64,000 nt of DNA from Blautia sp. (GTDB taxonomy: Bacteria; Bacillota; Clostridia; Lachnospirales; Lachnospiraceae), in the NCBI GenBank assembly GCA_023663685.1, contig JAMPHB010000001.1:864594-928593 (forward strand). Direction: 5' to 3'. The position numbers and the translations under genes were made by a program. Shown here piece after piece: positions 37,646 through 61,983 of this stretch. The stretch's first letter is position 1. Each line of letters opens with the position of its first letter. The notes beneath the pieces are model-generated. The model was not told the origin of the DNA, ran no database searches, and was given only the letters and a program-made list of their open reading frames with translations.

Positions 37646-37729
37646 GATTTTTCCTCCTTGAATTTCCTTGCAACTTGCCTGTTGCAATCAATGTTTGTGA
37701 GTGTTTTTATTACTACCTACTTGCCTTAT

Positions 37730-38840: not shown

Positions 38841-38848
38841 TCCTCTTC

Positions 38849-42665: not shown

Positions 42666-42826
42666 GCTTTTCTCACCTTCTGTTCCAAAACACACAAACT
42701 CTCTACCTTATATTATCGTCGGTCTATGGGAAAAATCAAGTACTTTTTTGCCAAAACCTAAATCTTCCTCCCCATACACCGATAAATATGGTATATTATA
42801 TCTATCAAACTATCACGGAGGATACT

Positions 42827-46654: not shown

Positions 46655-46694
46655 ACTAAAAAATCAGTGGCAATTTTGCCACTGATTTTTTTAT
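46655..46694. terminator. Bidirectional terminator between the surface-protein gene and the glycan operon
   Basis: AAAATCAGTGGCAA pairs with TTGCCACTGATTTT around a two-base loop, with T-runs on both strands. It ends the + strand surface operon and the minus-strand glycan operon. Confidence 0.92.
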
Positions 46695-48745
46695 AACAAA
46701 TCCCGAATATCCGTCATACGGTTAAAAAACGGATCTTCCACCGTCAGCCCCAGAAACGCCTTATCCCGAATATGAAACCCATGAATCAGGCGGAGCAGAA
46801 TCTCATCAATCCCCTTTTCCGGCGTTCGGATTTCTTCCGGGCAAAGCTCTATATATTCCTTAAAATAATCCACAATACCAGTCTGCACCTGCATGAAGCA
46901 CGCGATGTCCTCCCCGCTGCGTGTTTCGTCTGCATAGCAGGGATTTCCTTCGCTGTCAAATTCCAGCACCGACGGCATGGGAGAAGTAAGGATTGTTTCC
47001 AGTATATAGTACTCTTCATAGATTGCGCTCTGATCCCGTTCACTCTCATCATAGAATGCCTGTATATCCAGTCCCTTGTCCTTCATAAACGACTTTTCCA
47101 ACTGTAAAAAATACAGACCCTCCAAATGGTTTGGCACTAATCTGGAGCAATACATCTGACTCGTCCCCTTTGCCACAAAATCAAAAAATCCAATAGCGCC
47201 CTCCCCCACAGCCAGCGATTCCACATACTTAAGGTTATTTTTTCGTTTCTCCTCCAGCTCCTCCAGAATGACCTCTGTATAATCCACCAAGGCCTTTCCC
47301 TGTGTCTCCCCGTCCGGCCGCGCAATTCCAAACCGCTCCTTTAGCTGCTGCCCCAGCGTGCCGCTGAATTTCATTCCCCCAATATAAGAAATATCCTCCC
47401 TGCTCTGTACACCTGCTCTGAGCGCCGCCATACGGGAGGTGAGAAAATACACCGACCTATTCTCCGGCTGTAATATATCGTATAGTTTCTTTATCAGAAA
47501 GCCGTCCCGCGCACAGAACCAGATATTTTCAAGCTGCCGTTTCCCTGCCTCCTCTGCGAACCAGAGCACAAAGTCTGTGATCATTGGCGCCATAAATAAA
47601 TATCCAATATCATATGCGCTGTCCACATGCAGCCTCTGCTCCTCATTCTCGCACAAAAAGGGACTATTAAACACTTTACTCACAAGCATACCGAGCTTTA
47701 ACCGTGAGGCGAGCGTATCCATAGAATCGCGAAAGCCCAGATATCCCACATTCTCCAGCAAATCCATGCCACTAGGGATAAGAAAGGCTGACAGTCCCTC
47801 CCTCTGCGCGCTTTCTATATCCGCAGAGCTGTCATCTCCCACATGCAGAAAAGTCCTTTCTCCTAAAAGACTTTTGAATTCCTTGAACAAATGCTGTCTC
47901 TTTCCGGTGTGGTACTCGCAGGAGACCAAAAGCCCGTCATAGTCACGGATTCCACATATCCGAAGCATATGCGCAATCTGTTCCCGCCGGTAATACGAAT
48001 CCGTAACAATATAGATTTGCTTCCCCTGCCTGTGAAGCTCCGATAAGAGCTCTGTCATCTCCCTTCTCGGCACGATCAGCTCACAGTCCAGCTCCCACTC
48101 CAGCCTGGCGAGCTCTTCCGCTGTGACAGAAACCGGAGATACCTGATCCAGTACGGACTGATATATCACTTCTAAAAAAGGGGCATCCGCCTTCGAAAGC
48201 TCCTTTTCTGCGCTTATCCGCCTATCCACAAAATGATCAATACAGATTCCCTTTTCTCTTAATCGAAGCTCCAACAGCGCAATGACATCCGTGGGCAAAA
48301 GCACCTTGCGCATAATCAGTGTGTCAAACAAGTCAAAGCTGACCGCTTCCGCCTGCCTGGCGAGATGAAATAATTCTGACTTTTTCGGCCCGGCAATGCC
48401 GGCAAGATCATATGTCACCCGATTCTGCAGCAATAAATCTTTACCCCGCACATCCAGTAGTCGTATCTGATGCTCCTTACAAAATGCACCAATCTTTTTT
48501 GCAATCGCCCTGCATGAGCCCGGGCGCGCCACTACTATAATAAGCTGCACCCCGGCTTTCGCACAGTCCTGCAATGAAATAATGTTCTTCCCGTAAAGTG
48601 TTCCGTCCTCCCGAAAGCTGTCCAGCAGACCGATGACATTAAAGGAGCTAAGTTCGAAAAGCGCTGCCTCTGTCTCTGTTCCGAGCCCGTATAATGCAAT
48701 CGGAATATTCTTATACTCTCCAAACAATTCTTCCAGTGACGCCAC
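46691..48745 (-). CDS. COG5610-type HAD-superfamily protein with N-terminal Rossmann-like module
   Basis: 684 residues starting at GTG 48745 with AGGAGGAG upstream. Residues ~13-105 form a small Rossmann-like module (IPIALYGLGTETEAALFELS, then VIGLLDSF). The HAD domain follows: nucleophile motif FDLFDTL at 137-143, motif II IYIVTDSYY, and the distal acidic motif HVGDDSSADIESAQREG. The C-terminal ~330 residues (GYLFMAPMITDFVLWFAEEA, NIWFCARDGFLIKKLYDIL) are typical of COG5610 proteins found in glycan clusters. The HAD active site is intact, so phosphatase or phosphotransfer activity is possible. Kdo-8-P phosphatase (KdsC) is missing from this operon, but this protein is much larger than KdsC, so equating them would be speculation. 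Last gene of the long minus-strand operon. Confidence 0.75.
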   Translation of the reverse strand: MASLEELFGEYKNIPIALYGLGTETEAALFELSSFNVIGLLDSFREDGTLYGKNIISLQDCAKAGVQLIIVVARPGSCRAIAKKIGAFCKEHQIRLLDVRGKDLLLQNRVTYDLAGIAGPKKSELFHLARQAEAVSFDLFDTLIMRKVLLPTDVIALLELRLREKGICIDHFVDRRISAEKELSKADAPFLEVIYQSVLDQVSPVSVTAEELARLEWELDCELIVPRREMTELLSELHRQGKQIYIVTDSYYRREQIAHMLRICGIRDYDGLLVSCEYHTGKRQHLFKEFKSLLGERTFLHVGDDSSADIESAQREGLSAFLIPSGMDLLENVGYLGFRDSMDTLASRLKLGMLVSKVFNSPFLCENEEQRLHVDSAYDIGYLFMAPMITDFVLWFAEEAGKRQLENIWFCARDGFLIKKLYDILQPENRSVYFLTSRMAALRAGVQSREDISYIGGMKFSGTLGQQLKERFGIARPDGETQGKALVDYTEVILEELEEKRKNNLKYVESLAVGEGAIGFFDFVAKGTSQMYCSRLVPNHLEGLYFLQLEKSFMKDKGLDIQAFYDESERDQSAIYEEYYILETILTSPMPSVLEFDSEGNPCYADETRSGEDIACFMQVQTGIVDYFKEYIELCPEEIRTPEKGIDEILLRLIHGFHIRDKAFLGLTVEDPFFNRMTDIRDLL

Positions 48746-48756
48746 TTTGTCTCCTC

Positions 48757-49908
48757 CTACGTCCCGCCATACAAAAACTCATTAGAAAACCAGCGAATCT
48801 TTTCAGCCAAGAATCCCCGTTCCAGCAAATCTTTTTTGATATCCAAAGCGGTTTTTTCTGAAATATTCGCAATCAGCAAATATTCATATTCTGTATTCGT
48901 TTCATCAAACTCGTCCAAAGTTTCCACGGGCAGATCCTCGCTCCTATAATGACCCGCATTCCGGTCAAGCCATGCAGCGACCTCTATATCCTTCTCCCTG
49001 CAATAGGCATATAAGCTCTGACCGAGGCCGCCTGCCCCATAAATAACAATCCTGCTTCCCCGCTCTATCCCTCCATAGGGATAAAGCAAAACATTCTCAC
49101 TGTCCCAATAGGTCATATCCCGCAATACAAGATATTTTCTATAGATATCTAAATGCCGCAATAATTCTTTGGAATCCGAAAACTCCCGCTTTAAGTGTGC
49201 GATTAGGAAATCAATCTTTTCTATCTCATTTTTGTCTATTTGCTTTGTAATAGAACCCATATGCTGCACATAATGATAACAGCATATATCTGTAAGCAAA
49301 ACCCTCTCACTGTGACAGATATATGGATATACTACTGCTGCATCTTCTCCTACACATATTCTGTTATCAAGTCTCTCCTGAATCATTTTCAGTTTTTCTG
49401 TCTTATACAGCTTAGTAACCCCATGCGGCTGTATTCCATACTCAAAAAATGTCCCGCTATAAAGCATACCCTCTATAATCTCTTTCACATTATAGATGCC
49501 GCACTTCATATTGTTCGTCACAACAGAAGAAGCTTCTCCAAAATCATAATATAAATTTGCTGCCACCATATCCACATGAACGGCAAGCATGGCTTCCATC
49601 ATTCGGGCAAAATAATCCGGCTCAACCCAGTCGTCCGCATCTACCCATAGGATGTATTCGCCCTCCGCAAACGCTGTGCCGGTTCTTCGCGCTTCCACTA
49701 ATCCTGCATTTTTCTGATGATGTACATATATCTTTGCGTATTTCTGCGCATACTTGTCACAAATCCTGCCTGACGAATCCGTCGAACCGTCGTCAATCAA
49801 AATAATCTGTTTGTTTTCATATGTTTGTGCGACAATACTGTCCAGACACCTCTCAATATATTTTTCTACATTATATACCGGGACAACTACACTCAGCAAA
49901 GGCTCCAT
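48757..49908 (-). CDS. GT2 glycosyltransferase with C-terminal Rossmann-like module
   Basis: 383 residues. The GT-A domain is textbook: LSVVVPVYNVEKYIERCLDS, QIILIDDGSTDSSG (40-47), NAGLVEARRTG and the DxD-like site LWVDADDW (87-94), then GEDAAVVYPY. From residue ~284 a separate module begins: GSRIVIYGAGGLGQSLYAY, then VAAWLDRN, the same type of Rossmann-like unit that precedes or follows four other enzymes in this operon. The GT would add a sugar to the growing glycan in the cytosol. It lies between the COG5610 protein and the arabinose-phosphate isomerase, with gaps of about a dozen bases. Confidence 0.88.
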   Translation of the reverse strand: MEPLLSVVVPVYNVEKYIERCLDSIVAQTYENKQIILIDDGSTDSSGRICDKYAQKYAKIYVHHQKNAGLVEARRTGTAFAEGEYILWVDADDWVEPDYFARMMEAMLAVHVDMVAANLYYDFGEASSVVTNNMKCGIYNVKEIIEGMLYSGTFFEYGIQPHGVTKLYKTEKLKMIQERLDNRICVGEDAAVVYPYICHSERVLLTDICCYHYVQHMGSITKQIDKNEIEKIDFLIAHLKREFSDSKELLRHLDIYRKYLVLRDMTYWDSENVLLYPYGGIERGSRIVIYGAGGLGQSLYAYCREKDIEVAAWLDRNAGHYRSEDLPVETLDEFDETNTEYEYLLIANISEKTALDIKKDLLERGFLAEKIRWFSNEFLYGGT

Positions 49909-49923
49909 CTGTCACATCTCCCT

Positions 49924-50883
49924 CTAAACAATCCCCGTGCCGATAATGGACTGCAGCCGAATCGTCCCCACGACGCGGCCATTCTCCACCACCGGCATAC
50001 TTGCAATATTATTCGCTTTCATCTGATTGAGGGCATCCACCGCCAGACTCCCGCACTCAATATATTTAGGCGCTCTGGTCATTACATCCTTTGCCGCCAG
50101 ATGGTAGATATCAGCCCCCTTTTCCAGCTGCCTGCGCAAATCCCCGTCGGTGATCACACCAAGAAGTCTTTGGTTGCTGTCTGTAATTGACACGATTCCC
50201 AAGCCTTTGCTGCTAAGCAGAATAATAATCCGGGGCAGCTCCATGTCCTCAGAGCCCACCGCATTGTCCTCGCCTGCCACCATCAGCTCGTCCACTGTGA
50301 TTGTAATCTTTTTCCCCAATGCCCCGGCAGGATGATATCTCCCGAAATCAATATCACAAAAACCGTTCCGCTCGCTCACAGCCACCGCTAAAGCGTCTCC
50401 ATAGCACAGTGCCTGCGTCGTGCTGGAGGTTGGCGCCAGCCCCAGAATACATGCCTCGCCGTAATCCGGCAGCAGCTGTACAATATCCGCATATTTTGTC
50501 ATCGCAGAGCCCTCTTTTCCAGTAATGGCGACAACGACCGCGCCTGACAATCGAATCGCCGGCAGGATACGGTTGATCTCATCGCTCTCCCCACTGTGGC
50601 TGATGGCAATCACGATATCCTCCCGGCCTACCATTCCCAAATCTCCGTGCAGAGCCTCCGCCGGATGCAGGAAGAAGGAGGAAGCGCCCAGGCTGGCAAA
50701 GGTCGCGGCAATTTTTCGCGCAATATGCCCCGATTTGCCCATTCCAGTAACAATCACTTTTCCCTTACATCCAACTATCAGGTCAACAATTTGTGAGAAC
50801 ACCCCGCCAAGACAGTCCCTCGTCGCCTTCAGCGCCTCGATTTCCTTGTCAAATACATCCTTTCCCCTTGAGACAGCATCCAT
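49924..50883 (-). CDS. kpsF: D-arabinose-5-phosphate isomerase (KpsF/KdsD type, SIS + two CBS domains)
   Basis: 319 residues, the normal length. The SIS domain has KVIVTGMGKSGHIARKIAAT, SFFLHPAEALHGDLGMV and VIAISHSGESDEI; the conserved active-site His of the family lies in HPAEALHGDLG. Two CBS domains follow (about residues 200-319), including GVITDGDLRRQLEKG. The enzyme converts ribulose-5-phosphate to arabinose-5-phosphate, the first committed step toward Kdo. It sits five bases after the Kdo-8-P synthase gene, so the pathway assignment is strong. Because two other SIS/CBS enzymes (GutQ-like) share this form, the substrate is supported mainly by neighbours. Confidence 0.9.
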   Translation of the reverse strand: MDAVSRGKDVFDKEIEALKATRDCLGGVFSQIVDLIVGCKGKVIVTGMGKSGHIARKIAATFASLGASSFFLHPAEALHGDLGMVGREDIVIAISHSGESDEINRILPAIRLSGAVVVAITGKEGSAMTKYADIVQLLPDYGEACILGLAPTSSTTQALCYGDALAVAVSERNGFCDIDFGRYHPAGALGKKITITVDELMVAGEDNAVGSEDMELPRIIILLSSKGLGIVSITDSNQRLLGVITDGDLRRQLEKGADIYHLAAKDVMTRAPKYIECGSLAVDALNQMKANNIASMPVVENGRVVGTIRLQSIIGTGIV

Positions 50884-50888
50884 CGTCT

Positions 50889-51683
50889 CTATACCTCCGT
50901 CTCCTGCACCGCGGCATAAACTCTCAAAAGCTTCTTTAACAGTCCTTCTGCCTCTTCCAGGCGCACCATATTGGGACCGTCAGACAGCGCCTGCTCCGGC
51001 TCCGGATGCACCTCCATAAATAAAGCATCCGCTCCCGCCGCAATTCCCGCCTTTGCCAGCGGCTCCACATAACAGCGGTTCCCTCCGCTGACCGTTCCGT
51101 TCCCTCCGGGCTTTTGCACACTGTGGGTCGCATCCATGACTACCGGATACCCCAGCTTTTTCATTTCAACAATTCCGGTCATATCCACGACAAGCGTATT
51201 GTAGCCAAAGCTGGTTCCCCGCTCGCACAGCAGAATGCGGCGGCTTCCGCTCTCCTCGATTTTCCTGACCACATTTTTCATATCCCACGGTGCTAAAAAC
51301 TGCGCTTTCTTTACATTGATAAGACATTCTGTCTTTGCCGCTGCCACCAGCAAATCGGTCTGTCTGCACAAAAATGCCGGAATCTGAATCATATCCGCCA
51401 CCTGCGCGGCCTCTTTCGCCTGCCATGGCTCGTGTATATCCGTTGCTATTTTCAGACCGTAAGTATCTTTCACCTTTTGCAGCAGCGCAAGCCCCTTTTC
51501 GATTCCCGGCCCCCGGTAGGAAGACAGGCTTGTTCTGTTTGCCTTGTCAAAGGATGCCTTAAAATAGTAATCAATATCCAGTCTTTCTGCAATTTCTTTC
51601 ATCTCCCGCGCAACCCACATCAGATTTTCTTCGGACTCTATCACGCAGGGGCCCGCAATCAGCGTAAATTTTTCTAAGCTCAT
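50889..51683 (-). CDS. kdsA: 3-deoxy-8-phosphooctulonate (Kdo-8-P) synthase, metal-dependent class
   Basis: 264 residues from the ATG at 51683, with GGTGGAG upstream; a GTG two codons earlier is also open. Motifs of Kds[76 protein letters not shown] and [21 protein letters not shown]-type residues separate it from the DAHP synthases. Cys in AGPCVIES, where the E. coli enzyme has Asn, marks the metal-requiring class known from Aquifex. It condenses arabinose-5-P with phosphoenolpyruvate. It lies between the isomerase and the CMP-sugar synthetase genes. Confidence 0.95.
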
Positions 51684-51685
51684 GC

Positions 51686-52321
51686 TCACTCCACCATCCT
51701 TACCGCCATATCATAATCCTGCTGCTCGTCAATATCCACCGCTTCCATACCGCTTACCTCCTGAATATAGGGGCGAAAACCAATCCTGCGGCGATGCTCT
51801 GTAAATATTTCCTTTTGAAACATGTAAAAGCCACTTGTCTCCACCCAGACGGGCTCCATATCCTGCGTTCTCGGAACATCATTCAGATTATAATTGACAG
51901 GCTCGTTTTTGTACCATGCAAAGGTCTGGATACGCTCCGCGGAAAAGGCGGAATCATTTTCGCCCTGCAATACATGCTCCAGCGCGTTTGCAATCGAGGA
52001 GGCCTGCAAAAAGGGAGAGGTCGTGTGGGCAAGAATATATATCTGCGCATCAACCTCCCGGATAAAGCTCTCATATATTTCAAAGCCCTTTACGAGATCG
52101 CCGTCTAAGCTTTCGCTCCGTCTCAGAAACCTTGCCCCGTCGGGAAGATATTTGCAGACTGCCGGATCGCTACAATATACATACACCTCATCAATCCGCT
52201 CTACCTGCAGCAAGGAATTCACAATATGCCAGCAGAGCGGATGTCCCGCTATCGGCAGAATATTTTTGTGCGGCAATCTCTGGGAATCCAGCTTAATCGG
52301 TACAAAAGCAACTACCTTCAT
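51686..52321 (-). CDS. CMP-sugar synthetase (acylneuraminate/Kdo cytidylyltransferase family)
   Basis: 211 residues. The nucleotide-binding start [20 protein letters not shown] matches the NeuA-like branch (S/T-x-R-x-P-x-K-N) more than the classic KdsB opening. Other family marks are [40 protein letters not shown] and the late acidic [12 protein letters not shown]. With arabinose-5-P isomerase and Kdo-8-P synthase beside it, CMP-Kdo is the likeliest product, but a related 3-deoxy-2-ulosonic acid such as a nonulosonate cannot be excluded. The start overlaps the next upstream gene by four bases (ATGA). A KdsC-type phosphatase, needed between the steps, is not evident in the window. Confidence 0.82.
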
Positions 52322-53925
52322 ACTCGTTCCTCCTCGAAAAAATTATATGTGACGGGCAGACCGTACCGCATGACCCTCCTGGAGAGATCGTCCCAGAGGC
52401 AGGTCTTCATCAGCTGTGCTAAATGCATATCAAAGGCCGCATTCTGCTCCTTCGTCATTCCCTTCTGCACGGCTTCCTGCAAGGCCGTTTCTATCTCAGA
52501 GCTGTCGCTGACTTCGTAGGCGCAATTCTTTCCCTGAATCGCACTTCTCCCCACCGGAACTACCGGCTTTCCATACATCAGCGCCTTATATTCCACCGCC
52601 GACGCCATACAGACAGTCACATCTGACATTTGAATGAGGCTGTCCACATCACGGTCCAGAACCAGAATGATCCCGGAGCCAATATCTGCAATATCCGGCA
52701 GATTTCCCTTATTATAATGCGGATGCGGCTTAAAAATCAAATTCCAGTCATTTCTGCGGCATATGTCGTACAGAAATGCCAGCATTTCCTTCGAGGACTG
52801 AAAGCAATGGCTCACATACTGATACCAGTAATCTGACTCAGGATTCATGCCCATCCCCTCATCGTCCATCCCCGCAACAAATACCGTTTTCCTGTCAGTA
52901 TCCAGCTTCGCCAGATGTTCATCATCTGTCATCGTTTTATGAAAGATTCCCGTATCCCTCTGTGAATCTATAATATAGGATTTTACAGCTCCTGCCCTGT
53001 CAAGCTCTTCCTTTTCCACCTTGATATCCAGCAGCTTCTGCGGATTCACCGCATACTCTCCCTGCCCCTGAATCCCTTTTCTGTCAATCTGGTATGTGCC
53101 GGGTATCCAGCCAAACTCCATAAAACCAATAGGAATCTGATGCTTCTCTGCCAGCCTGCCAAGCACATATCCCTGAAAATTCCATGCCGCCCATACGATA
53201 ATTCTTTTTGCCTCTAAAATCATCAGCAACTGCTCATAGTATTCATACATAAGCGCAAGACATCTGCCCGTACAATCAACATCCTCTACATGCTTTCTGT
53301 GCATGATCTCTAAAATGTTTTTGGTCTTTCCACTTTCTCCTGAATCCTCCGCCTTTAGTGCCTCCTTGTACTCCTTTGCTTCATACCAGTTGCTCAATAA
53401 GGGCAAAGCAATTACGTCCCAGCCATATTTTTCGATTACTCCAGACGTATCCATTCCTTCGCAGTCCGTCAGAATGATGCACTGCTCATTTTTATGCGCT
53501 TCCTGATAAGCGGCAAGAAAATTGAGCATAGTCCCATTTTGGCGCATGGTAAAAACCGGGATAAACAGCAATGTGGTGTTTTTGTAATTCTTTACGGCTG
53601 CAAATTCCCTGCACTGTTCTATGCTTTCACGATATGTAATCTTTCTATTATCACAGAGCATATCATAGGTAATGAAATCTGTTCCCTGCCTTAATCCCTT
53701 TGCTTTCAGATCATTTACAATCTCCGCGTGAAATTTACACATAATGATTACAAACAATCCCTGCCAGTCCTCTATGGCTTCGGGAGATAAGACCTTTTTT
53801 CCATAAAACTCCTCTCCATAATAATTGGAGTCAATAAAAAAAGACGGTTCTATTTTTGCATTATTCTCTAAATACGCCCTGCAGAGAGTACCCACTCCCC
53901 AAAATACTGTGGTTTTTTCCTTCAT
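52318..53925 (-). CDS. GT-B-type glycosyltransferase resembling KpsC/KpsS, with N-terminal Rossmann-like module
   Basis: 535 residues. Residues 1-95 form the operon's shared module: TTVFWGVGTLCRAYLENN, SFFIDSNYYGEEFYGKKVLS, LFVIIMCKFHAEI. The rest looks like a two-domain GT-B: IIVWAAWNFQGYVLGRLAEK, a Gly/Met-rich VFVAGMDDEGMGM, LIFKPHPHYNKGN and VTVCMASAVEYKALMYGKPV followed by VPVG. The KPHP element and the late (S/A)xxxEALxYGKPVV-like motif recall KpsC/KpsS capsule enzymes, which transfer Kdo. Placement directly upstream of the CMP-sugar synthetase fits Kdo transfer. Homology is inferred from short motifs, so other GT-B or CDP-polyol transferases remain possible. Confidence 0.6.
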   Translation of the reverse strand: MKEKTTVFWGVGTLCRAYLENNAKIEPSFFIDSNYYGEEFYGKKVLSPEAIEDWQGLFVIIMCKFHAEIVNDLKAKGLRQGTDFITYDMLCDNRKITYRESIEQCREFAAVKNYKNTTLLFIPVFTMRQNGTMLNFLAAYQEAHKNEQCIILTDCEGMDTSGVIEKYGWDVIALPLLSNWYEAKEYKEALKAEDSGESGKTKNILEIMHRKHVEDVDCTGRCLALMYEYYEQLLMILEAKRIIVWAAWNFQGYVLGRLAEKHQIPIGFMEFGWIPGTYQIDRKGIQGQGEYAVNPQKLLDIKVEKEELDRAGAVKSYIIDSQRDTGIFHKTMTDDEHLAKLDTDRKTVFVAGMDDEGMGMNPESDYWYQYVSHCFQSSKEMLAFLYDICRRNDWNLIFKPHPHYNKGNLPDIADIGSGIILVLDRDVDSLIQMSDVTVCMASAVEYKALMYGKPVVPVGRSAIQGKNCAYEVSDSSEIETALQEAVQKGMTKEQNAAFDMHLAQLMKTCLWDDLSRRVMRYGLPVTYNFFEEERV

Positions 53926-55094
53926 TTATAATTACGCTCCCTCTGCTTTGCCGCAGGAACTACATAATCTTTGCTATTACTCCCATGACATCTTCTGCAC
54001 ATACTTAAATACCCCTTTTCAGAATATCCCATATTAAATTCCAGCAAGAGCTTTCTTCCCAAATCGCCCTCCGGAAGCGAAGTCAAATCCAAAAAATCCT
54101 CTTCTCCTATATGATACCCCAGATTATCCGACACTGTCCGGGCCATAACGCAGAAATAGAGTCTTCCATTTCTGGTTTCTCTGCAGGGAGTAGCACAAAG
54201 GTCAAATTTTCGGATAATTTCTTTTTCATCCCCCTCGTCTACATAATTTGCAAACCCATAATCCCACCATTCTTCATCTTCTTTTCCCATGTTATATGAA
54301 ACTCCGGCCTTCGCCAGCAGCTTTTCTAATTTTTCATACTGATCATGTAAGGCTGGAATCGACCTTGTATAATTCGAAATCCTAACCAGAACCCCATACT
54401 TCCGGCAACTGTCTAATAACTCCTTCCCGGGAAGAATTGTTCCATTTGTCGTAATACTGAATGTCCCAATCTTATCCCTGTACTTGTCTCCTATATATCG
54501 AACCGCATATTCCAAATCTGCATATAATAACGGTTCTCCCCCAATCAATACGAACTCATGGATATAGTCCACTTTAGAAAAGAATATGTCTGCGGAATTG
54601 TAAACATCCTCCAGGCGCATATCCTCCGTATTCCGATCCACCGCATAACACGCATGTGCACAGTCCGCGCACTTTAAGGTACACCGTTCGGTCACGCATA
54701 TTTGTGCAAGATTCATAAACAGAAGATTCTTTTTATAAAACATATACAAAGGAAAAATCCTATTCAAAAACCCCTCAGAATAGTAATAGGTACAGTTATC
54801 CTGTTTTAACTGCCTGCTAATTTCCTGTTCATGGGCAGAATTCGCCGCAATAATTATCGTCTCCTCCTTTGCATTCTCTAAATACCACTCGTAAGAATGC
54901 ACAATCTCCCCGCAAAAACCGCTTATCTGCTTTTCCCTGCTATTATCTATAAATCCTGCAAACATATCAAATTTGGATAATGTCACATATAATCCACGGC
55001 CAATATCCCCAGCGCCAAAGATATAAAAAGAGCGGTTATCCAAATTCGGAATCTTTAGCTTGTCCAACTCTGATCCCTTGTGAGTCCATTTCAT
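53922..55094 (-). CDS. Radical SAM protein with N-terminal Rossmann-like module
   Basis: 390 residues. Residues ~20-110 are the shared module (RSFYIFGAGDIGRGLYVTLS, FAGFIDNSRE, IIIAANSAHEQEI). The radical SAM core follows with CTLKCADC (C138, C142, C145, spacing CX3CX2C), EFVLIGGEPLLYADLEYAVR and TFSITTNGTILPG, as expected for a 4Fe-4S/SAM enzyme. A C-terminal cysteine cluster (CATPC, YFC, MCRRCHG) may hold an auxiliary cluster as in SPASM/Twitch proteins. It may modify a sugar or peptide in the glycan pathway; the substrate is unknown. Its stop overlaps the start of the GT-B gene by four bases. Upstream 55095-55190 shows no promoter I can support. Confidence 0.82.
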   Translation of the reverse strand: MKWTHKGSELDKLKIPNLDNRSFYIFGAGDIGRGLYVTLSKFDMFAGFIDNSREKQISGFCGEIVHSYEWYLENAKEETIIIAANSAHEQEISRQLKQDNCTYYYSEGFLNRIFPLYMFYKKNLLFMNLAQICVTERCTLKCADCAHACYAVDRNTEDMRLEDVYNSADIFFSKVDYIHEFVLIGGEPLLYADLEYAVRYIGDKYRDKIGTFSITTNGTILPGKELLDSCRKYGVLVRISNYTRSIPALHDQYEKLEKLLAKAGVSYNMGKEDEEWWDYGFANYVDEGDEKEIIRKFDLCATPCRETRNGRLYFCVMARTVSDNLGYHIGEEDFLDLTSLPEGDLGRKLLLEFNMGYSEKGYLSMCRRCHGSNSKDYVVPAAKQRERNYK

Positions 55095-55190
55095 AATAAT
55101 ACTTCCCCTTCATTTATGATTTCCTTTACCTGTGTGCGTCTCACAAATAGACTTTCGTGTTATAAAATTAGGCTTTCCCGGCTTCATCCA

Positions 55191-56918
55191 CTATCCTAAA
55201 AATGGATATAAATCATCAAACTCCGCCGCTTTTAGGGAACCATCGGGCATCACTCGCGATGCGATCCTTGGCTCAATCGGCGCAAAGTCCTGAATCATTA
55301 CCTCACAGACCACAGACCCTTCCATGCCCAGCACTTCCTCAAGCTTCTGCCGCAGATTATCCTCCGCCGTAATCCGAACGGCCGGAAGCCCATAGGCCTG
55401 TGCCACCTTACAGAATTCCGGCGTCTGCAAACCGCTGTCCGGCCCTACCCCCAAAAAGCGGTCGTTCATATAATTGTGCTGGTTATGCCGAATCAGCATA
55501 TAGCCGTTATTATTATATACAAACAGCTTGACCGGAAGCTTGTGATATGCCATCGTCGCAAATTCCTGTATATTCATCTGGGTGCTTCCATCTCCCGACA
55601 GTGCAAGCACCTGCCGCCCCGCCTGACATGCGCCTATCGCGGTTGCCCATGAGCCCATGCTGGAAAAACCGCCGGAAGCCAGATAACGCTGCCCCTTTTT
55701 CAGCTTCCAGCTCTGGGATACCATACAGTATACGCTTCCTGTATCCACCACAATATTACTATCCGCAGAGGCAAGTGCAGACAACTGCTCTGTAAAGTAA
55801 TATGCATTGAGCGGTTTCTGCGCGCGGTACTCTGGCTTTACAACCGGATAGCGTTCCTTGTTCTCCATGCAGAACTGAATCCACTGTGTATGATCCTCCG
55901 GTGTCTCTCCCTCCAGTTGTCCCAAAAGGCTCTCCAAAAAGACTTTGACATCCTGCCTATACTTGTGCTGAACCGGAACCGCATCGCGGACTAATTCCTT
56001 TTCATCAATATCAACCATAATTTTAACCGCATGTTCTGCCAGACGCTCCGGGTAATAGCCGATTGTTGACACAGATAAGCGGCTTCCCAAGATCAGAAGT
56101 ACGTCGCACGCCTGCACAGCGAAATGAGAGGCGCGGTCTCCATAGCCGCCCGGTCTGCCGACATAATATGCAGCGTCCGATGCAATCACATCAATTCCGC
56201 CCCGGGAAGTAACCACCGGAATCTGATACTTATTGCTTAACAGCTCTAACAGTTCTGTTGCACCCGCACTTCGCACTCCGAAGCCCGCCAAAATCAGGGG
56301 CTTCTTTGCTTCTAAGATAATCCGGGCAATCGATGCATAATCAATTACATCCATCTCCTCCGCCGTCGGCTCATATCCCTCCATAGTCTCCGGCACCTGC
56401 CGGTTCTGAATATCCACGGGAACATCGATCCACACCGGCCCTTGTCTCCCTGCGGTCGCATGGCAGTACGCCTCCTCCAATATTCTGCGGGTATCCTCCG
56501 GCCTCATAATGGTCGCACAGTACTTTGTAATACTCTGCACCACCGGCTCCACAAGCATACTCTGGCAGGCATTCTGCCGGATTCCACTGTCGAGCGTATA
56601 CTGGAGCAATCTGGAATTCGCCTGCCCGGATATGGCAAATACCGGAGTGGAGTCAAAATATGCCTGCGCAATTCCCGTGATGGCATTCGTCACCCCCGGC
56701 CCGATTGTGACAAGGCATGCGCCGGGAACATGGTTCACCCGCGCGTATCCGTCCGCCGCCATTGCCGCTGCCTGCTCATGGTGACAACACACAGCCTCCA
56801 GCTCTTCATTGCGGTATAGCGCGTCCGTCAGCCACATCGCGGAGCTGCCGGACACCATATACACCCGCCCACAGCCCTTTTTTTGTATATAATCAAAAAT
56901 ATAATCTGCCACTGTCAT
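55191..56918 (-). CDS. ThDP-dependent enzyme of the acetolactate-synthase-like family
   Basis: 575 residues with the three-domain plan: the N-terminal domain with catalytic Glu in CCHHEQAAAMAADGYAR and GPGVTNAITGIAQAYFDSTP; the central domain with PLILAGFGVRSAG; the C-terminal ThDP-binding motif GDGSTQMNIQEFATMAYHKL...VYNNNGY. No regulatory small subunit or branched-chain amino-acid genes are nearby, so valine/isoleucine synthesis is unlikely. Related enzymes in glycan clusters join a pyruvate-derived two-carbon unit to a keto sugar, giving branched sugars (YerE type), or make unusual acyl donors. Either would suit the neighbouring ligase/carrier and aminotransferase. The ATG at 56918 follows AAGGGTG. 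Confidence 0.8.
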   Translation of the reverse strand: MTVADYIFDYIQKKGCGRVYMVSGSSAMWLTDALYRNEELEAVCCHHEQAAAMAADGYARVNHVPGACLVTIGPGVTNAITGIAQAYFDSTPVFAISGQANSRLLQYTLDSGIRQNACQSMLVEPVVQSITKYCATIMRPEDTRRILEEAYCHATAGRQGPVWIDVPVDIQNRQVPETMEGYEPTAEEMDVIDYASIARIILEAKKPLILAGFGVRSAGATELLELLSNKYQIPVVTSRGGIDVIASDAAYYVGRPGGYGDRASHFAVQACDVLLILGSRLSVSTIGYYPERLAEHAVKIMVDIDEKELVRDAVPVQHKYRQDVKVFLESLLGQLEGETPEDHTQWIQFCMENKERYPVVKPEYRAQKPLNAYYFTEQLSALASADSNIVVDTGSVYCMVSQSWKLKKGQRYLASGGFSSMGSWATAIGACQAGRQVLALSGDGSTQMNIQEFATMAYHKLPVKLFVYNNNGYMLIRHNQHNYMNDRFLGVGPDSGLQTPEFCKVAQAYGLPAVRITAEDNLRQKLEEVLGMEGSVVCEVMIQDFAPIEPRIASRVMPDGSLKAAEFDDLYPFLG

Positions 56919-56973
56919 ATCGTATCTTCACCCTTCTATATCCCATGCTCTAAAATGATAGCTCCCGCTTTTC

Positions 56974-58386
56974 CTATTGCTTCATTAACTCCTTATACAA
57001 AGTTTTTCCCGATTCATTTTTAGGAATATTCTCCAAATAAATCATCCGAAAAGCATTTCTGTGTAAACCCGTTTTTTTTAATAAAAAACGCTGTATCTCT
57101 TCCTTCATACAACTCTTTGTATAAAATATATCCATCTGGTCATCCACGCCTGCACAAGCCACATCCATATCAGGGAATCCTACCTTGAGAATCTGTTCAA
57201 CTTCATCCAGGCTTATCCGGTTTCCTAAAATTTTTAGAAATCTCTTTCTTCTGCCCGCAAAATAAAAAAATCCATCTTTGTCCTTATATGCGATATCGCC
57301 AGTTTTCAAACAACCAGCCCGCTCATCCCCTTTACACAAATCTTCAAGGCACTCCGCATACCCCAGTGTTACATCATCACCATAATATACAATTTCGCCA
57401 TTCGTATTTGCCTCTTCAATTTCATTTCCCTGCACATCTATCAGCGCCATACGACCATTCGGCACAGCAATTCCCATACTTCCTACCTTCTCAAATTCGT
57501 ATGGAACAGGAACATATGCTAAAACCGCTGTTCCCTCACACTGACCATACATAACCACAAATTTTTTATTTGATTCTCTCGCGTCCTTTGCAAATGCCTG
57601 ATGCAATTCTGCGCGCAGCTTCCCACCCGACTGTGTCATGTATCGCAATGAAGGATAATTCTTTACGGTAAAATGCATACGATTCAATGTCTCATAAGTA
57701 TACGGTACCCCCGAAAAGCTGGTTGCCCTCCGCTCCATAAAGAAATCCCAAAACTCTTTCTGGACAACGGATTTATCGGTAAGCAATATAGTTGCTCCTA
57801 CATCTAAATGAGTATTCACTACACTGAGTCCATATGTATAATTGATCGGTAACGTAGTAATGGGTCTTTCTGTATCACTGATTTTTAAAAAGCTCACAAT
57901 ATTTTCTATATTGGCTCTCATATTCTTATAACTCTGGCGAACAAACTTCGGGCTTCCAGTAGAGCCGCTCGTGGTCAGTAATAATGCTAATTCATCATAC
58001 AATGCAACATCCGTCCCGGCGTATGGTGTCTTATATAAAATGTATTCAAAGCACTCATATACCTTTTTGCACTCCTGCAATAAAGAATAAGAAATATTCG
58101 ACTCTCCAATCCATAAATAAGACGGATGATATTTTTGATATAAGCAATTGAGCATGTCCTCATCCAGGTCAGCCTTTAACATGGCAGGAACTATTCCACC
58201 ATTGATAAATCCTATATATCCAATCAAACTCCCCAAACAATTTTTACAAAACAAAAAGACCATACAGCGTGTCCCTATAACCTTACACAAGTCTTCTCCG
58301 AACTTTTCCAGCTCTCCATAAGAAAGCATTTGTCCCCTATCATCAATGATGGCTGTCCGCTCATCCTTATCGCTAAAATTCCACAT
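56974..58386 (-). CDS. Adenylate-forming (acyl/aminoacyl) ligase
   Basis: 470 residues from the ATG at 58386, with CAGGGAG upstream; it overlaps the carrier-protein gene by 14 bases. ANL-family motifs: A3 LLLTTSGSTGSPKFVRQS, A5 VVMYGQCEGTA, A7 GCLKTGDIAYKDKDGFFYFA, A8 GRRKRFLKILGNRISLDEVE and the C-terminal catalytic Lys in NESGKTLYKEL. It activates a carboxylic acid with ATP and, given the carrier protein encoded directly upstream, loads it as a thioester. The adenylation pocket was not decoded, so the acid is unknown. The gene is visibly A/T-richer than the Kdo genes downstream. Confidence 0.88.
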   Translation of the reverse strand: MWNFSDKDERTAIIDDRGQMLSYGELEKFGEDLCKVIGTRCMVFLFCKNCLGSLIGYIGFINGGIVPAMLKADLDEDMLNCLYQKYHPSYLWIGESNISYSLLQECKKVYECFEYILYKTPYAGTDVALYDELALLLTTSGSTGSPKFVRQSYKNMRANIENIVSFLKISDTERPITTLPINYTYGLSVVNTHLDVGATILLTDKSVVQKEFWDFFMERRATSFSGVPYTYETLNRMHFTVKNYPSLRYMTQSGGKLRAELHQAFAKDARESNKKFVVMYGQCEGTAVLAYVPVPYEFEKVGSMGIAVPNGRMALIDVQGNEIEEANTNGEIVYYGDDVTLGYAECLEDLCKGDERAGCLKTGDIAYKDKDGFFYFAGRRKRFLKILGNRISLDEVEQILKVGFPDMDVACAGVDDQMDIFYTKSCMKEEIQRFLLKKTGLHRNAFRMIYLENIPKNESGKTLYKELMKQ

Positions 58387-58609
58387 TATATTTCTCCCTG
58401 AGAATTTCAAGTCCATTATCAAAAGAATTTAATTCTATTGTGTCATTCATATCAAACTCAATATTAAATTTCTCCTCTAAATCTGCAATCAACATCATAT
58501 GTGTCACGCTGTCCCACATATCATTCATACCATATTTCATCTTAATTGCCTGATCCTTTGTTATATCAAATGTCTCCTCAAAGGCTCTGACATATTTATT
58601 GTAATTCAT
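58373..58609 (-). CDS. Acyl carrier protein
   Basis: 78 residues from the ATG at 58609, which has GGAGGAAG seven bases upstream (an in-frame Met five codons earlier lacks a site). The phosphopantetheine attachment Ser lies in MWDSVTHMMLIADLEEKFNI, corresponding to the DSL(x)xVE motif of carrier proteins, followed by the acidic recognition helix. It carries the acyl or aminoacyl group made by the ligase encoded next and offers it to an acyltransferase. It is not the housekeeping fatty-acid ACP: neither fab genes nor the usual ADSLD sequence is present. Confidence 0.88.
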   Translation of the reverse strand: MNYNKYVRAFEETFDITKDQAIKMKYGMNDMWDSVTHMMLIADLEEKFNIEFDMNDTIELNSFDNGLEILREKYNVEF

Positions 58610-58638
58610 GTGAACTTCCTCCATTTCATAATTTCCAC

Positions 58639-59649
58639 TTATACTAAATTCGGTCTGTCCATATCACCATCAGCATGAAAAAACCGGTAATTTGAATTTT
58701 TAGGAAAGCTGACATAGATGCATTGATTTTCCTGGATCAAGGGATCCAGTCTGTCTGGAATAATATTTGTTTCATTTTCATTTAACACAAATCCCATTTC
58801 CTTCATAACCGTCGGACTGATTCCATAACATAAACAGTCAATATATTCATAATCTCTTTCTTTTCCCATGCTCTCAAAAAAATCCGCTATATCAATTAAC
58901 TCATTTTCGCTTCCAATAATATCCACTATCCGGGCTATTTTTCTATCAGCCACTTGTTGTTCTCTCATAACAAAAAAGGTAGTAAACCGTTTTTTTTCTA
59001 CCTCTATTCCATAAATAGTATAATGATATAGTTCACTTGGAAAATGAAAATATCGTTTAATAATGTATTGCAGACTTTTATATGGCCTCTGCAAAATTAA
59101 ATGATTTTCATTGATCACCTGTCTGCACATATCCTCAGTATCTATCCGTTTTACAGTGTACTTCGACTTTCTAACGGGCAATATAATTTCCTCTGAAATT
59201 TTAGCCACTTTATACTCATCTCCGGCAAATAATTTATAATAATGCTTCATAGTGTCAACCTTCCACTTCAAAAAAGAGGAATACATAAAACGTGTATTTT
59301 TCTCAAGATTGACCGCAGATATATGCTGATAATGCCTGGATAAATAAATCATTATTTTAAGTGCAATTGGATTTTTCTCCCCTTTTTTTACCAGCAGGTT
59401 CGACATCCAAACATCCGTATCTGAACATCTAATAAGCCCGCAAGCGCCTACTAACTGCTGGTCGCATTCCCTTCTTGCAACCACAAAATTTAAACGCTCG
59501 TTCCCTCTGTAATAGTAATCAAACAATTCATCTCTTACGATAATCTGTGAGGTTTTCCATTCTCTACAAAAGAAATCAACAAGTTCCTCTTTTTCATCAT
59601 ACTCTGCAATATAAATCAAATGTCCATCTAAACTTTCCTGATTGCTCAT
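58639..59649 (-). CDS. GNAT-like acyltransferase associated with the carrier protein
   Basis: 336 residues. A double-GNAT-like layout is suggested: an N-terminal half with FVVARRECDQQLVGACGLIR and WMSNLLVKKGEKNPIALKIM, and a C-terminal half with FVMREQQVADRKIARIVDII. The ending RFFHADGDMDRPN is a hallmark I associate with acyltransferases encoded beside ACP/ligase pairs in surface-glycan clusters. It probably moves the acyl group from the carrier protein to an amino group on a sugar. Thirty bases separate it from the carrier-protein start. The whole gene is strongly A/T-rich. Confidence 0.6.
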   Translation of the reverse strand: MSNQESLDGHLIYIAEYDEKEELVDFFCREWKTSQIIVRDELFDYYYRGNERLNFVVARRECDQQLVGACGLIRCSDTDVWMSNLLVKKGEKNPIALKIMIYLSRHYQHISAVNLEKNTRFMYSSFLKWKVDTMKHYYKLFAGDEYKVAKISEEIILPVRKSKYTVKRIDTEDMCRQVINENHLILQRPYKSLQYIIKRYFHFPSELYHYTIYGIEVEKKRFTTFFVMREQQVADRKIARIVDIIGSENELIDIADFFESMGKERDYEYIDCLCYGISPTVMKEMGFVLNENETNIIPDRLDPLIQENQCIYVSFPKNSNYRFFHADGDMDRPNLV

Positions 59650-59658
59650 ATCCTGCCT

Positions 59659-60774
59659 CTACGCACTAATAATTTCTGATATTTCCCTACATACTCTGTC
59701 TACATCTTCCTCTGTAAGATTCAATGCCGAAGGAAGTGTAATACCAGCTTTCCAAAATTTCTCTGATATCGGTACTGAAAATCTCCTATCATAATTAGGC
59801 ATCGCGCTCATGGAGGGGTATCCCGGCCGCGCCCAGATATTTTTTTTCTGCAGGGCTTTCAGTATAGTATCCCTGGATACTGGGCAAGATTCATTGACAA
59901 AGCCCACCACATACGCATAGTTGCTCTCACATTCCGCTCCCACCTTCAACAAATCTATTCCGGCAATTTGCTGGAAGCGCACATGATACCATTCATAAAT
60001 CTGCTTTTTCTTTGCGACCAATTCATCTAAGCGTTCAATTTGAGCCAGAATCAACGCCGCTGTTACATTTGATATGCGGTAATTATACCCCACATCGTCC
60101 GACCACAGATAATCAATGCTGTCATTCCGACAAAAGGTTCCATAGTGCAATGCCCTTTTATATAATGCCTCATCATCTGTAACAAACATCCCTCCCTCTC
60201 CGCCAACCGCAATCTTCGAGCCCTGAAAGCTAAACGCTCCTATATCTCCAATTGTACCACAATAACGACCTTTATACCTGCCGCCAACCATTTGACAAGC
60301 ATCCTCAATAACTTTCAAATGATGATTCCCTGCAATCTCCATAATTCGATCCATATCCGCAGACATTCCTGCAAAATGCACCAGCATAATAGCTTTCGTT
60401 TTTTCTGTAATTGCCTGCTCAATCAATCCCGGATTGATGCAAAGAGTCTCTGGACATATGTCCACAAATACACAGGTAGCGCCTACATAGCTTATAGCCT
60501 GCGCTGTGGCAATATAGCTCTGGTCTGTCACAATCACTTCATCCCCCGGCTGCAGCCCCAGGGCAATCGTTGCCAGATGCAGGGCATGAGTACCACAATA
60601 TGTAGCTATCGCATATTTTACTCCTACCATCTCTGCAAAGGTTCTTTCTAATTTGCGGATGTCCTTGTCATAAGTCTCATACCAGCCGTTTCGCACTGCA
60701 TCTACTACATATTCTATTTCTTTTTCTGTAATGTCCGGGCCTGCTAACGCAATTTTTTTATACTCATTTCCCAT
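59659..60774 (-). CDS. DegT/DnrJ/EryC1/StrS-family sugar aminotransferase
   Basis: 371 residues, the family's normal length. The PLP-lysine lies in FSFQGSKIAVGGEGGMFVTD. Other marks are YCGTHALHLATIALGLQPGD, EVIVTDQSYIATAQAISYVG, VIEDACQMVGGRYKGRYCGT and the dimer segment DDVGYNYRISNVTAALILAQ. These enzymes transaminate a keto group on a nucleotide-linked sugar. The product amino sugar would be the natural acceptor for the acyltransferase encoded immediately downstream. The start ATG at 60774 follows AAGAGG. Confidence 0.92.
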   Translation of the reverse strand: MGNEYKKIALAGPDITEKEIEYVVDAVRNGWYETYDKDIRKLERTFAEMVGVKYAIATYCGTHALHLATIALGLQPGDEVIVTDQSYIATAQAISYVGATCVFVDICPETLCINPGLIEQAITEKTKAIMLVHFAGMSADMDRIMEIAGNHHLKVIEDACQMVGGRYKGRYCGTIGDIGAFSFQGSKIAVGGEGGMFVTDDEALYKRALHYGTFCRNDSIDYLWSDDVGYNYRISNVTAALILAQIERLDELVAKKKQIYEWYHVRFQQIAGIDLLKVGAECESNYAYVVGFVNESCPVSRDTILKALQKKNIWARPGYPSMSAMPNYDRRFSVPISEKFWKAGITLPSALNLTEEDVDRVCREISEIISA

Positions 60775-60789
60775 CTCTTAGACCTCTTT

Positions 60790-61983
60790 CTACACACAAT
60801 AATACACAAATGAGATATGGTTCATATAAGACCTGAGATACAGCTTATAATCAGCGTTATACTTTAAAATTCTATCTGGAACCTCCCACATATCCCAAGT
60901 CTTGTGATATCCTGCAATCGCAAGTCTCGGCTTATAGGTTTCAATTGTTCTCTGCGCGCCCTGCAGCGCCTGCAGCTCCGCCCCCTCTATATTCATTTTA
61001 ATATAAGTAGCTCTGTTTCCGGCAAGCGCGCCATCTATTGTGATGGTCTGTACCTCCTCGCTTCCGATATCTGCTAAAAAGCTTCCCGGCCCCTTCAATG
61101 AATACAGCCTTGCCCCTCCATCATTATTCCAAACAGCTGAATGATACAGCTTCATTTTTTTCCGAATATCAGCCGGCAATCCTGCCACATACTTCTGGAG
61201 CGCTTCATAATTTGATTTATCCGGCTCAAAACCATAATATGCCTCAAACTTACTTCCATTCTCTTTTAAAAACGTTCTGGCACTGATACCATCATAAGCG
61301 CCACAGTCCACAAAGACTTCATCGTCTTGCTTCTCGTAAAAACCTTCCTCAAAATATTGCTTATCCTGCGGCGTCGTAGGTATCGTAAGGCTGTCGTCCA
61401 CCAAACGAAAACGAAGTATTTTCAAGAACACATCTCTGGATAAATCATCTTCCAAACGATTATACACTTTTTCCAGTACATCCTGATGTTCTAAAATACA
61501 ATCCACATCTGAGCAAGACGGAAGATTATATGGATCTCCATGAAACAGCCCATGCACTCTTCGAAAATAAGTATAATCAATATCATGCCGAACTCCACAT
61601 TCCCGGAGCAATTTGTGAACTCCCGGATGTCCGCCGATGCGCAGAGCTTCATCAAAACTTTTACAGTATCTCTTTCCATCCGTATTGATTGTGACAATTA
61701 CCAGAGCTTCCTCACCTGCCCTACTAATAATTTGCTCTGGCGGTATAATCTCTAAATCTTCACAAAACGTCCCCCAGCGAGATGGATTCTTATCCACAAA
61801 ATATATCGGTTCGATTTGGACTTCTCTTAAATACTTTAAAAAGGCAATCCCAGCACTTCCGGCTCCGTAGAGACATATTTTGTGTATTTGCTCCCCTAAA
61901 TCCTGTTTCATTTGGGAAATGGAAATCTCTATTTGCTTTCTATTTTGTTGAAACTCATTTAAAATTTCTTTTACTTCACTCAT
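60790..61983 (-). CDS. FkbM-family methyltransferase with N-terminal Rossmann-like module
   Basis: 397 residues from the ATG at 61983, chosen because it overlaps the upstream stop as ATGA. After a helical lead of ~30 residues comes the shared module (HKICLYGAGSAGIAFLKYLR, PIYFVDKNPSRWGTF, ALVIVTINTDGKR). The FkbM methyltransferase follows with SAM motif I VFVDCGAYDGISARTFL, YYGFEPDKSNYEALQKYV and the family element TIDGAL...TYIKMNIEGAELQALQG. It would O-methylate a sugar or alditol hydroxyl. The module in front could bind a nucleotide or sugar nucleotide and steer the enzyme to its substrate. Confidence 0.85.
   Translation of the reverse strand: MSEVKEILNEFQQNRKQIEISISQMKQDLGEQIHKICLYGAGSAGIAFLKYLREVQIEPIYFVDKNPSRWGTFCEDLEIIPPEQIISRAGEEALVIVTINTDGKRYCKSFDEALRIGGHPGVHKLLRECGVRHDIDYTYFRRVHGLFHGDPYNLPSCSDVDCILEHQDVLEKVYNRLEDDLSRDVFLKILRFRLVDDSLTIPTTPQDKQYFEEGFYEKQDDEVFVDCGAYDGISARTFLKENGSKFEAYYGFEPDKSNYEALQKYVAGLPADIRKKMKLYHSAVWNNDGGARLYSLKGPGSFLADIGSEEVQTITIDGALAGNRATYIKMNIEGAELQALQGAQRTIETYKPRLAIAGYHKTWDMWEVPDRILKYNADYKLYLRSYMNHISFVYYCV

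Follow-up and report, generated by a model that had tools for sequence, protein, structure and literature searches.

Five enzymes with unrelated catalytic parts (as judged by Pfam), encoded in one gene run of Blautia sp., each carry a copy of the same ~90-residue Rossmann domain, here called the module. The run lies in a 64,000-nucleotide stretch (the window) of contig JAMPHB010000001.1 from assembly GCA_023663685.1, which comprises 2.32 Mb in 31 contigs and is 81.8% complete. Profile comparisons confirm that the modules of the window are homologous copies of one domain. Their fold is that of the group containing PglD-N, the C-terminal domain of sugar C-methyltransferases, the domain of unknown function (DUF) of WbaP, and Rex. 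We tentatively favor the reading that they are long-fused copies which serve enzymes of surface-glycan assembly and tailoring as a nucleotide-binding control or dimerization module.

Homology and distribution

An initial annotation, made from the sequence letters, had proposed a common unit at the N-terminus of four of these proteins and the C-terminus of the fifth, and all five modules are where it placed them, on the minus strand. Its count of five holds inside the window. The gene run extends past the right end, however, and with the continuation (read as stretch L002) it holds seven modules, one of the additional two being on another FkbM protein and one standing alone. Independent E-values (iE) and site motifs are listed with each module.

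46691..48745, minus strand: HAD-type protein, 684 amino acids; HAD domain at residues 134-315 (Pfam Hydrolase/HAD_2), module N-terminal, C-terminal ~350 amino acids without assignment
48452..48733, minus strand: module HAD_N, residues 5-98, iE 2.6e-9; glycine loop YGLGTE, strand-2 Asp in LLDS, third Gly replaced
48757..49908, minus strand: GT2 glycosyltransferase, 383 amino acids; Pfam Glycos_transf_2, module C-terminal
48784..49077, minus strand: module GT2_C, residues 278-375, iE 5.7e-18; YGAGGLG, WLDR
52318..53925, minus strand: GT-B/Capsule_synth-like protein, 535 amino acids; Pfam Capsule_synth, module N-terminal
53662..53925, minus strand: module GTB_N, residues 1-88, iE 2.6e-11; WGVGTLC, FIDS
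53922..55094, minus strand: Twitch-type radical SAM protein, 390 amino acids; Pfam Radical_SAM, N-terminal module behind a conserved MKWxxKGxE segment
54774..55055, minus strand: module rSAM_N, residues 14-107, iE 4.7e-15; FGAGDIG, FIDN
60790..62013, minus strand: FkbM-type methyltransferase, 407 amino acids; Pfam Methyltransf_21, TTG start (an in-frame ATG fits the end 61983), module N-terminal
61636..61911, minus strand: module FkbM_N, residues 35-126, iE 1.2e-17; YGAGSAG, FVDK
L002 5787-6854, outside the window, same gene run: second FkbM protein (FkbM2) with module
L002 10885-11337, outside the window, same gene run: stand-alone module protein, 150 amino acids

The evidence for homology comes from a hidden Markov model (HMM) built exclusively from other genomes; HAD_N and GTB_N were kept out of its seed, and five rounds on 20 fetched loci brought it to 132 modules. 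This relatives-only HMM recovers all seven local modules, and the next open reading frame (ORF) in the window and the 34 kb beyond it has an E-value of 0.13. The independent E-values rule out chance similarity. As a negative control, 0 of 40 SDR dehydratases from the fetched loci, which are Rossmann proteins themselves, were called as modules. The initial annotation had suggested aligning the modules with one another by profile search, and every window module is indeed found by a profile that does not contain them.

A profile built from the seven local modules themselves (A1, own genome's modules included) was dropped as a sole basis for homology. When each sequence was left out in turn, five were recovered at 3.1e-5 to 9e-11. 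HAD_N was recovered weakly (E 0.021, yet better than every non-module ORF) and GTB_N not at all (E 0.28, with three non-module ORFs ranking better), and both results count against homology. Plain BLAST among the five window modules, run on the five-sequence set with no composition correction, linked GT2_C to FkbM_N (1.8e-6), GT2_C to rSAM_N (0.006) and HAD_N to GTB_N (0.04); none of the remaining pairs was better than 5. A1 found nothing in its own genome beyond the seven (found by construction) at E ≤ 0.001, with one further candidate at E 0.117. A second profile, A4, drawn up from 85 modules, gave eight matches in the same genome at E ≤ 1e-6, with six among the matches listed. The relatives-only scores of HAD_N (31.8 bits) and GTB_N (38.3 bits) are similar to those of Rex and VioB with A4. 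The comparison is a rough one, as the profiles differ, but the module is a branch of that larger Rossmann group and has no sharp boundary as a family.

Clusters of modules are common. With A1 at E ≤ 0.001, 97 of 150 genomes of the family (one per genus) had at least one match, and 18 of the 150, own included, had five or more. Across the phylum, A4 at E ≤ 1e-6 gave five or more matches in at least 11 of 249 genomes, own included. At most 20 candidates were scored per genome, so that high counts may be underestimates; many single matches lie in frames of ~210-240 amino acids that look like Rex, and the other counts include Rex. We then have two locus sets. The first, 20 regions chosen for holding several matches plus the own locus, contains 139 modules in 138 proteins (61 N-terminal, 60 C-terminal, 17 stand-alone, 1 internal). 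The second, 75 mostly Lachnospiraceae loci drawn from public genomes with the radical SAM protein as query, contains 410 modules, and 7 of the 75 loci have none by the profile used. Because this query itself bears a module, one module per locus is expected from selection, but the others are not. Among the 50 loci of this set that are at least 19 kb long, 44 hold three or more modules, the threshold of a neighborhood survey proposed in the initial annotation, and 40 hold five or more. The description of five modules in one operon as unusual was dropped on these family, phylum and long-locus counts.

The two sets partly overlap (L047 and L085, for example, share the same flagellin matches and are on contigs of equal length), and joint counts include near-duplicates. 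Jointly they comprise 549 modules in 546 proteins, or 522 modules after removal at 90% identity.

Partner enzymes

Clustering the remainders of the 546 module proteins gave 77 partner groups, which are sequence clusters and not equivalent to superfamilies, and 49 proteins in which no partner part reaches 100 residues. Three of these 49 are cut by a locus edge and 46 are not; at least 36 residues precede the module in 26 of the 49. Representatives of 32 of the 36 first-set groups, and a few from the joint set, were scanned against Pfam. Partners above the Pfam cut-offs were GT2, Radical_SAM, FkbM, HAD hydrolase, Glycos_transf_1, RgpF, GT8, WbsX, MptE-like, TylF, LicD, TOD1/MUCI70, Gly_transf_sug, Glyphos_transf, DUF4422, Methyltransf_11/25, Methyltransf_24, GT-D, NKWYS, WcbI and Capsule_synth. 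These ~20 families are mostly enzymes of glycan assembly and tailoring. Some representatives had no named Pfam family (for example L054:11639-12937, L051:2188-3723 and L052:9632-11419).

The module occupies a fixed end in the main classes: N-terminal in 119/119 radical SAM and 32/32 FkbM proteins, C-terminal in 114/114 GT2 proteins. It is mixed in HAD (19 N, 1 C) and GT4 proteins (16 N, 5 C). In the fetched loci, near-duplicates included, it is present on 20/20 HAD, 32/34 FkbM, 120/139 radical SAM (partly by selection), 112/198 GT2 and 4/4 GT-B matches. Conversely, it is present on none of the 130 matches (128 distinct proteins) to ten precursor-type or accessory queries in these loci: DegT (18), nucleotidyltransferase (23), SDR (40), CMP-sugar synthetase (19), thiamine pyrophosphate (TPP) enzyme (9), AMP-ligase (1), aldo/keto reductase (1), amine-oxidase-like (5), KpsF (8) and KdsA (6).

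Two of the window enzymes can be described further. The FkbM protein scores 53.2 bits against the FkbM methyltransferase family (PF05050; cut-off 22.7). The radical SAM protein has the Cys triad, a further Cys, and a fold match to the Twitch dehydrogenases SpeY and BtrN, whose substrates we take to be aminocyclitols. In its MKW segment, M1, W3 and G7 are invariant in 47 proteins and K2 and E9 nearly so; the segment is modeled with high confidence and may reach the active site.

Fold and ligand site

The initial annotation likened the module to the PglD-N and C-methyltransferase-C fold, and correctly so, according to sequence-profile matches and to two modeled modules. Both models are confident and of the PglD-N / C-methyltransferase-C / WbaP-DUF / Rex fold. 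By sequence, A4 matched 3nkl (1.4e-11; by title a UDP-D-quinovosamine 4-dehydrogenase), Rex (1e-9), VioB (1.2e-6), WbaP residues 144-226 (2e-4) and the FkbM protein 2py6 (0.005). The AlphaFold2 model of HAD_N has a predicted local distance difference test score (pLDDT) of 94.7 and a predicted template modeling score (pTM) of 0.85. Its structural matches begin with the sugar C-methyltransferases MtmC and KijD1, followed by the acetyltransferase PerB. The model of the whole radical SAM protein (pTM 0.93) is confident throughout, and its helix 106-122 runs from the module into the SpeY/BtrN-like catalytic part.

Across the 522 modules, the first loop Gly is conserved at 0.97, the second at 0.87, the third at 0.67 and the strand-2 Asp at 0.85, with the Asp kept in most partner classes. 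In Rossmann domains, this combination of Gly loop and strand-2 Asp fits a bound ribose-containing ligand, without telling NAD(H) from pyrimidine nucleotides. Such a ligand would fit most module classes.

One use for such a site would be as a substrate handle, with the module gripping an NDP- or CMP-sugar by its nucleotide and the catalytic domain acting on the sugar moiety. The matching domain of PglD/PerB-type acetyltransferases and of sugar C-methyltransferases presumably has this role. The order of the HAD_N matches, the helix joining module to catalytic part in the radical SAM model, and the fixed module end in radical SAM, GT2 and FkbM proteins are all in line with it. However, GT2 and GT4 glycosyltransferases already have an established nucleotide-sugar site of their own, and 46 to 49 of the 546 module proteins are stand-alone. 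Single old fusions would also give a fixed position, and in GT4 proteins the position is not fixed. We consider the handle a somewhat doubtful explanation.

Proposed function

We tentatively infer instead that the modules act in control or dimerization. Each module would use its glycine loop and strand-2 Asp to bind a nucleotide (UMP, UDP, CMP or an NDP-sugar, with NAD(H) also possible). With nucleotide bound, the module would stabilize, dimerize or switch the attached enzyme, so that the steps of glycan building would sense one shared metabolite pool. Stand-alone modules would act likewise in trans, and the existence of the partnerless proteins fits a function independent of any attached catalytic domain. 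Two precedents place nucleotide-responsive control or dimerization first by analogy. According to PMC10942596, the DUF of WbaP makes most of the inter-chain contacts of the WbaP dimer, and the authors propose a regulatory role for it. According to PMC12802240, a response regulator activates EpsZ of Myxococcus, a large monotopic phosphoglycosyl transferase (monoPGT), and is proposed to do so by favoring EpsZ dimerization.

Several results weigh against this proposal. Rex matches A4 better than WbaP, VioB or PglD-type proteins do, and unrelated Rossmann proteins outscore WbaP as well (2g6t at 3.8e-6, STEAP4 at 7.9e-6, dihydrodipicolinate reductase at 1.2e-5), and the top Foldseek rows are biliverdin reductase and Rex. 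The one direct regulatory precedent that we found, WbaP, is therefore not the closest match. The standing of Rex, the second-best sequence match and among the best Foldseek rows, would suit a redox sensor: the modules would bind NAD(H) in the manner of Rex and adjust the glycan assembly of an anaerobe to its redox state. Rex is nonetheless outscored by 3nkl, whose title names a nucleotide-sugar enzyme domain, and most identified partners are glycan-related, making this a very unlikely account.

The site itself is also incomplete in places. The Asp is replaced by V in RgpF-type (0.91 of 11) and DUF4422-type (0.73 of 11) modules, the second Gly is also lost in about half of the DUF4422-type modules, the third Gly is Thr or Ala in HAD modules, and a glycine or the Asp is missing from some classes with 4-5 members. 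Judging from these residues, binding may be lost or different in such classes. The same losses could mark the modules as structural remnants, old fused domains that aid only folding or solubility. We think this highly improbable, since the G-loop and Asp are conserved in most classes over 522 diverged modules, and the module is retained on every HAD match and nearly every FkbM match.

Evolution of the fusions

The initial annotation inferred a common docking or sugar-nucleotide-binding adaptor that gathers a modification complex on one carrier. In the docking form of this idea, modules would bind each other or a common hub (a stand-alone module, for example), bringing the assembly enzymes together. 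The many modules per locus, their attachment to either end of the partner, the stand-alone copies, and their occurrence on assembly and tailoring enzymes with 0/128 on precursor-type and accessory proteins would all suit docking, as would the dimer contacts of the WbaP DUF.

The relationships among modules point elsewhere. When only other loci are considered, 299 of the 522 modules have their nearest module on the same partner class (class frequencies predict 0.10). When all loci are considered, 26 of the 522 find their nearest module within their own locus, more than the 6.2 expected by chance. Nineteen of these 26 share the partner class with it, as tandem copies would, and 7 do not. Mean identity between modules on different partners is 0.199 within a locus and 0.196 between loci; for the same partner it is 0.253 and 0.237, respectively. 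The within-locus excess of 0.003 is above most label shuffles (6 of 500 reached it) but very small. Stand-alone modules (46 non-redundant) have a stand-alone nearest relative in other loci in 30 of 46 cases and form a class of their own.

Thus the fusions are mostly old, and modules travel with their enzyme. We rejected the idea that a single module was recently copied onto the different enzymes of a locus, as identities are low and nearest relatives lie mostly elsewhere. There is little sign of locus-specific co-evolution between different enzymes, which a cognate docking code would predict, and docking would not require a conserved loop of the ligand-binding type. Docking is therefore unlikely in our estimation, although a generic, non-cognate association of modules is possible. 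Of the adaptor idea, the shared nucleotide-binding-type fold stands; the docking part is not favored, as modules hardly resemble their locus neighbors on other enzymes.

It is tempting to speculate that in Lachnospiraceae, and in some lineages besides, surface-glycan loci share a common currency, in which one metabolite (or a stand-alone hub) switches or gathers the whole glycan-building set through its shared nucleotide-sensing module, though we would regard this broad form as improbable. It is an open question how a bacterium keeps the many enzymes behind a single surface glycan in step. One domain common to the glycosyltransferases, methyltransferases, radical SAM and HAD enzymes of a locus, and absent from the tested precursor-type enzymes, provides a concrete handle on it, and may be an overlooked common part for control or attachment in surface-sugar assembly. 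The module is also a signature for finding unannotated glycan-tailoring enzymes in gut bacteria, such as the MKW-type radical SAM family.

Genomic setting

The remaining genes of the run, and the flagellin genes near it, are as follows.

49924..52321, minus strand: KpsF-type isomerase, Kdo8P synthase and CMP-sugar (PseF/KdsB-like) synthetase; precursor genes without module
55191..60774, minus strand: TPP enzyme, AMP-ligase, 336-amino-acid protein and DegT aminotransferase; run genes without module
36188..37687, minus strand: first flagellin gene
L002 13139-14566, outside the window, same strand as the run and upstream of it: second flagellin gene

The twelve gaps between 46691 and 63122 measure -34 to 15 bases, except for three of 96, 55 and 216 bases. 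A promoter could lie within the 216-base gap (58422 to 58639). A promoter consensus scan gave 51 sites against 36.5 expected, leaving the transcription start undecided. The run also contains genes that look by sequence inspection like glucose-1-phosphate cytidylyltransferase, CDP-glucose dehydratase, two transketolase halves and an aldo/keto reductase; Pfam backs the dehydratase and the reductase only.

Glycan genes adjoin a flagellin gene here, as in a flagellin glycosylation island, and from this position we predict that the run is a flagellin-modifying locus. Flagellin glycosylation islands with FkbM genes occur in Geobacillus (PMC5109656). Eight of the other fetched loci, including some duplicates, gave flagellin-like matches; within the fetched stretches, the majority of module loci thus show no flagellin neighbor.

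The Kdo8P synthase scores 408.7 bits (cut-off 242), and the KpsF-type isomerase and CMP-sugar synthetase (PseF/KdsB-like, below cut-offs) adjoin it in this flagellin-side locus. Kdo as a lipopolysaccharide sugar is not expected in a Lachnospiraceae-like genome. The HAD protein was considered as the missing Kdo8P phosphatase and rejected: Kdo8P synthase accompanies this HAD class in just two of 18 loci within the stretches fetched, those of the window and of its close relative L076. L076 (JAMPCA010000001.1) is the nearest named record, with 8 modules and a radical SAM protein 97% identical. Its title, Muribaculaceae, is at odds with the Lachnospiraceae relatives and is probably a naming error of that metagenome-assembled genome.

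The gene of the stand-alone module protein shares 37 bases with the end of a gene for a Glyphos_transf-like protein (21.2 bits, cut-off 22.1). The 336-amino-acid (58639-59649) and 380-amino-acid (61980-63122) proteins of the run have no Pfam match at E ≤ 0.01, and the former has no other match at E ≤ 1e-10 across the fetched stretches. Beside the first flagellin gene, 37788-40272 encodes a zinc alcohol dehydrogenase, an IspD-type cytidylyltransferase and a ribulose-phosphate epimerase, a set that we take to resemble CDP-polyol (TarI/TarJ-like) genes. An 829-amino-acid protein (40206-42695, minus strand) has a long repetitive Glu/Gly/Pro-rich stretch.

Comparison with known systems

The domain superfamily has been described before. 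The open-access literature searched yielded no account of its occurrence across so many families of glycan enzymes within one locus, and Pfam names the extra part above cut-off in none of the five window proteins. PglD_N (PF17836) shares the Rossmann fold with glycine loop and strand-2 Asp (two modules modeled). Its best window score is 16.9 bits for GT2_C (cut-off 23.4), and the other four proteins are not listed at E ≤ 1. In the sugar N-acetyltransferases PglD, VioB and PerB, it is fused to an acetyltransferase, unlike the window modules. The C-terminal domain of sugar C-methyltransferases such as MtmC and KijD1 (PF08484, Methyltransf_14) comes closer, with 22.4 bits for FkbM_N and 12.6 for GT2_C (cut-off 23.5), but its partners differ from those seen here. 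C2185-like_N (PF22674) was matched by 7 of 85 modules at E ≤ 0.01, and L050:7708-8721 passes its cut-off (30.9 vs 27 bits); the window's genome gave no match to this family at E ≤ 0.01, and control genomes were equally silent. The FkbM methyltransferase of Methylobacillus flagellatus (PDB 2py6) is one solved fusion of this kind.

Rex matches the modules in sequence and fold through its NAD(H)-binding domain, but Rex is a DNA-binding regulator, whereas the modules sit on glycan enzymes. The WbaP DUF (PF13727, 'CoA_binding_3', also on PglF-like dehydratases) is not among the 21 Pfam families that the 85 modules matched at E ≤ 0.01; it matches the modules in sequence and fold. According to PMC10942596, this domain accompanies a transmembrane bundle on membrane enzymes, whereas the modules described here are carried by many enzyme families, often with many copies in one locus.

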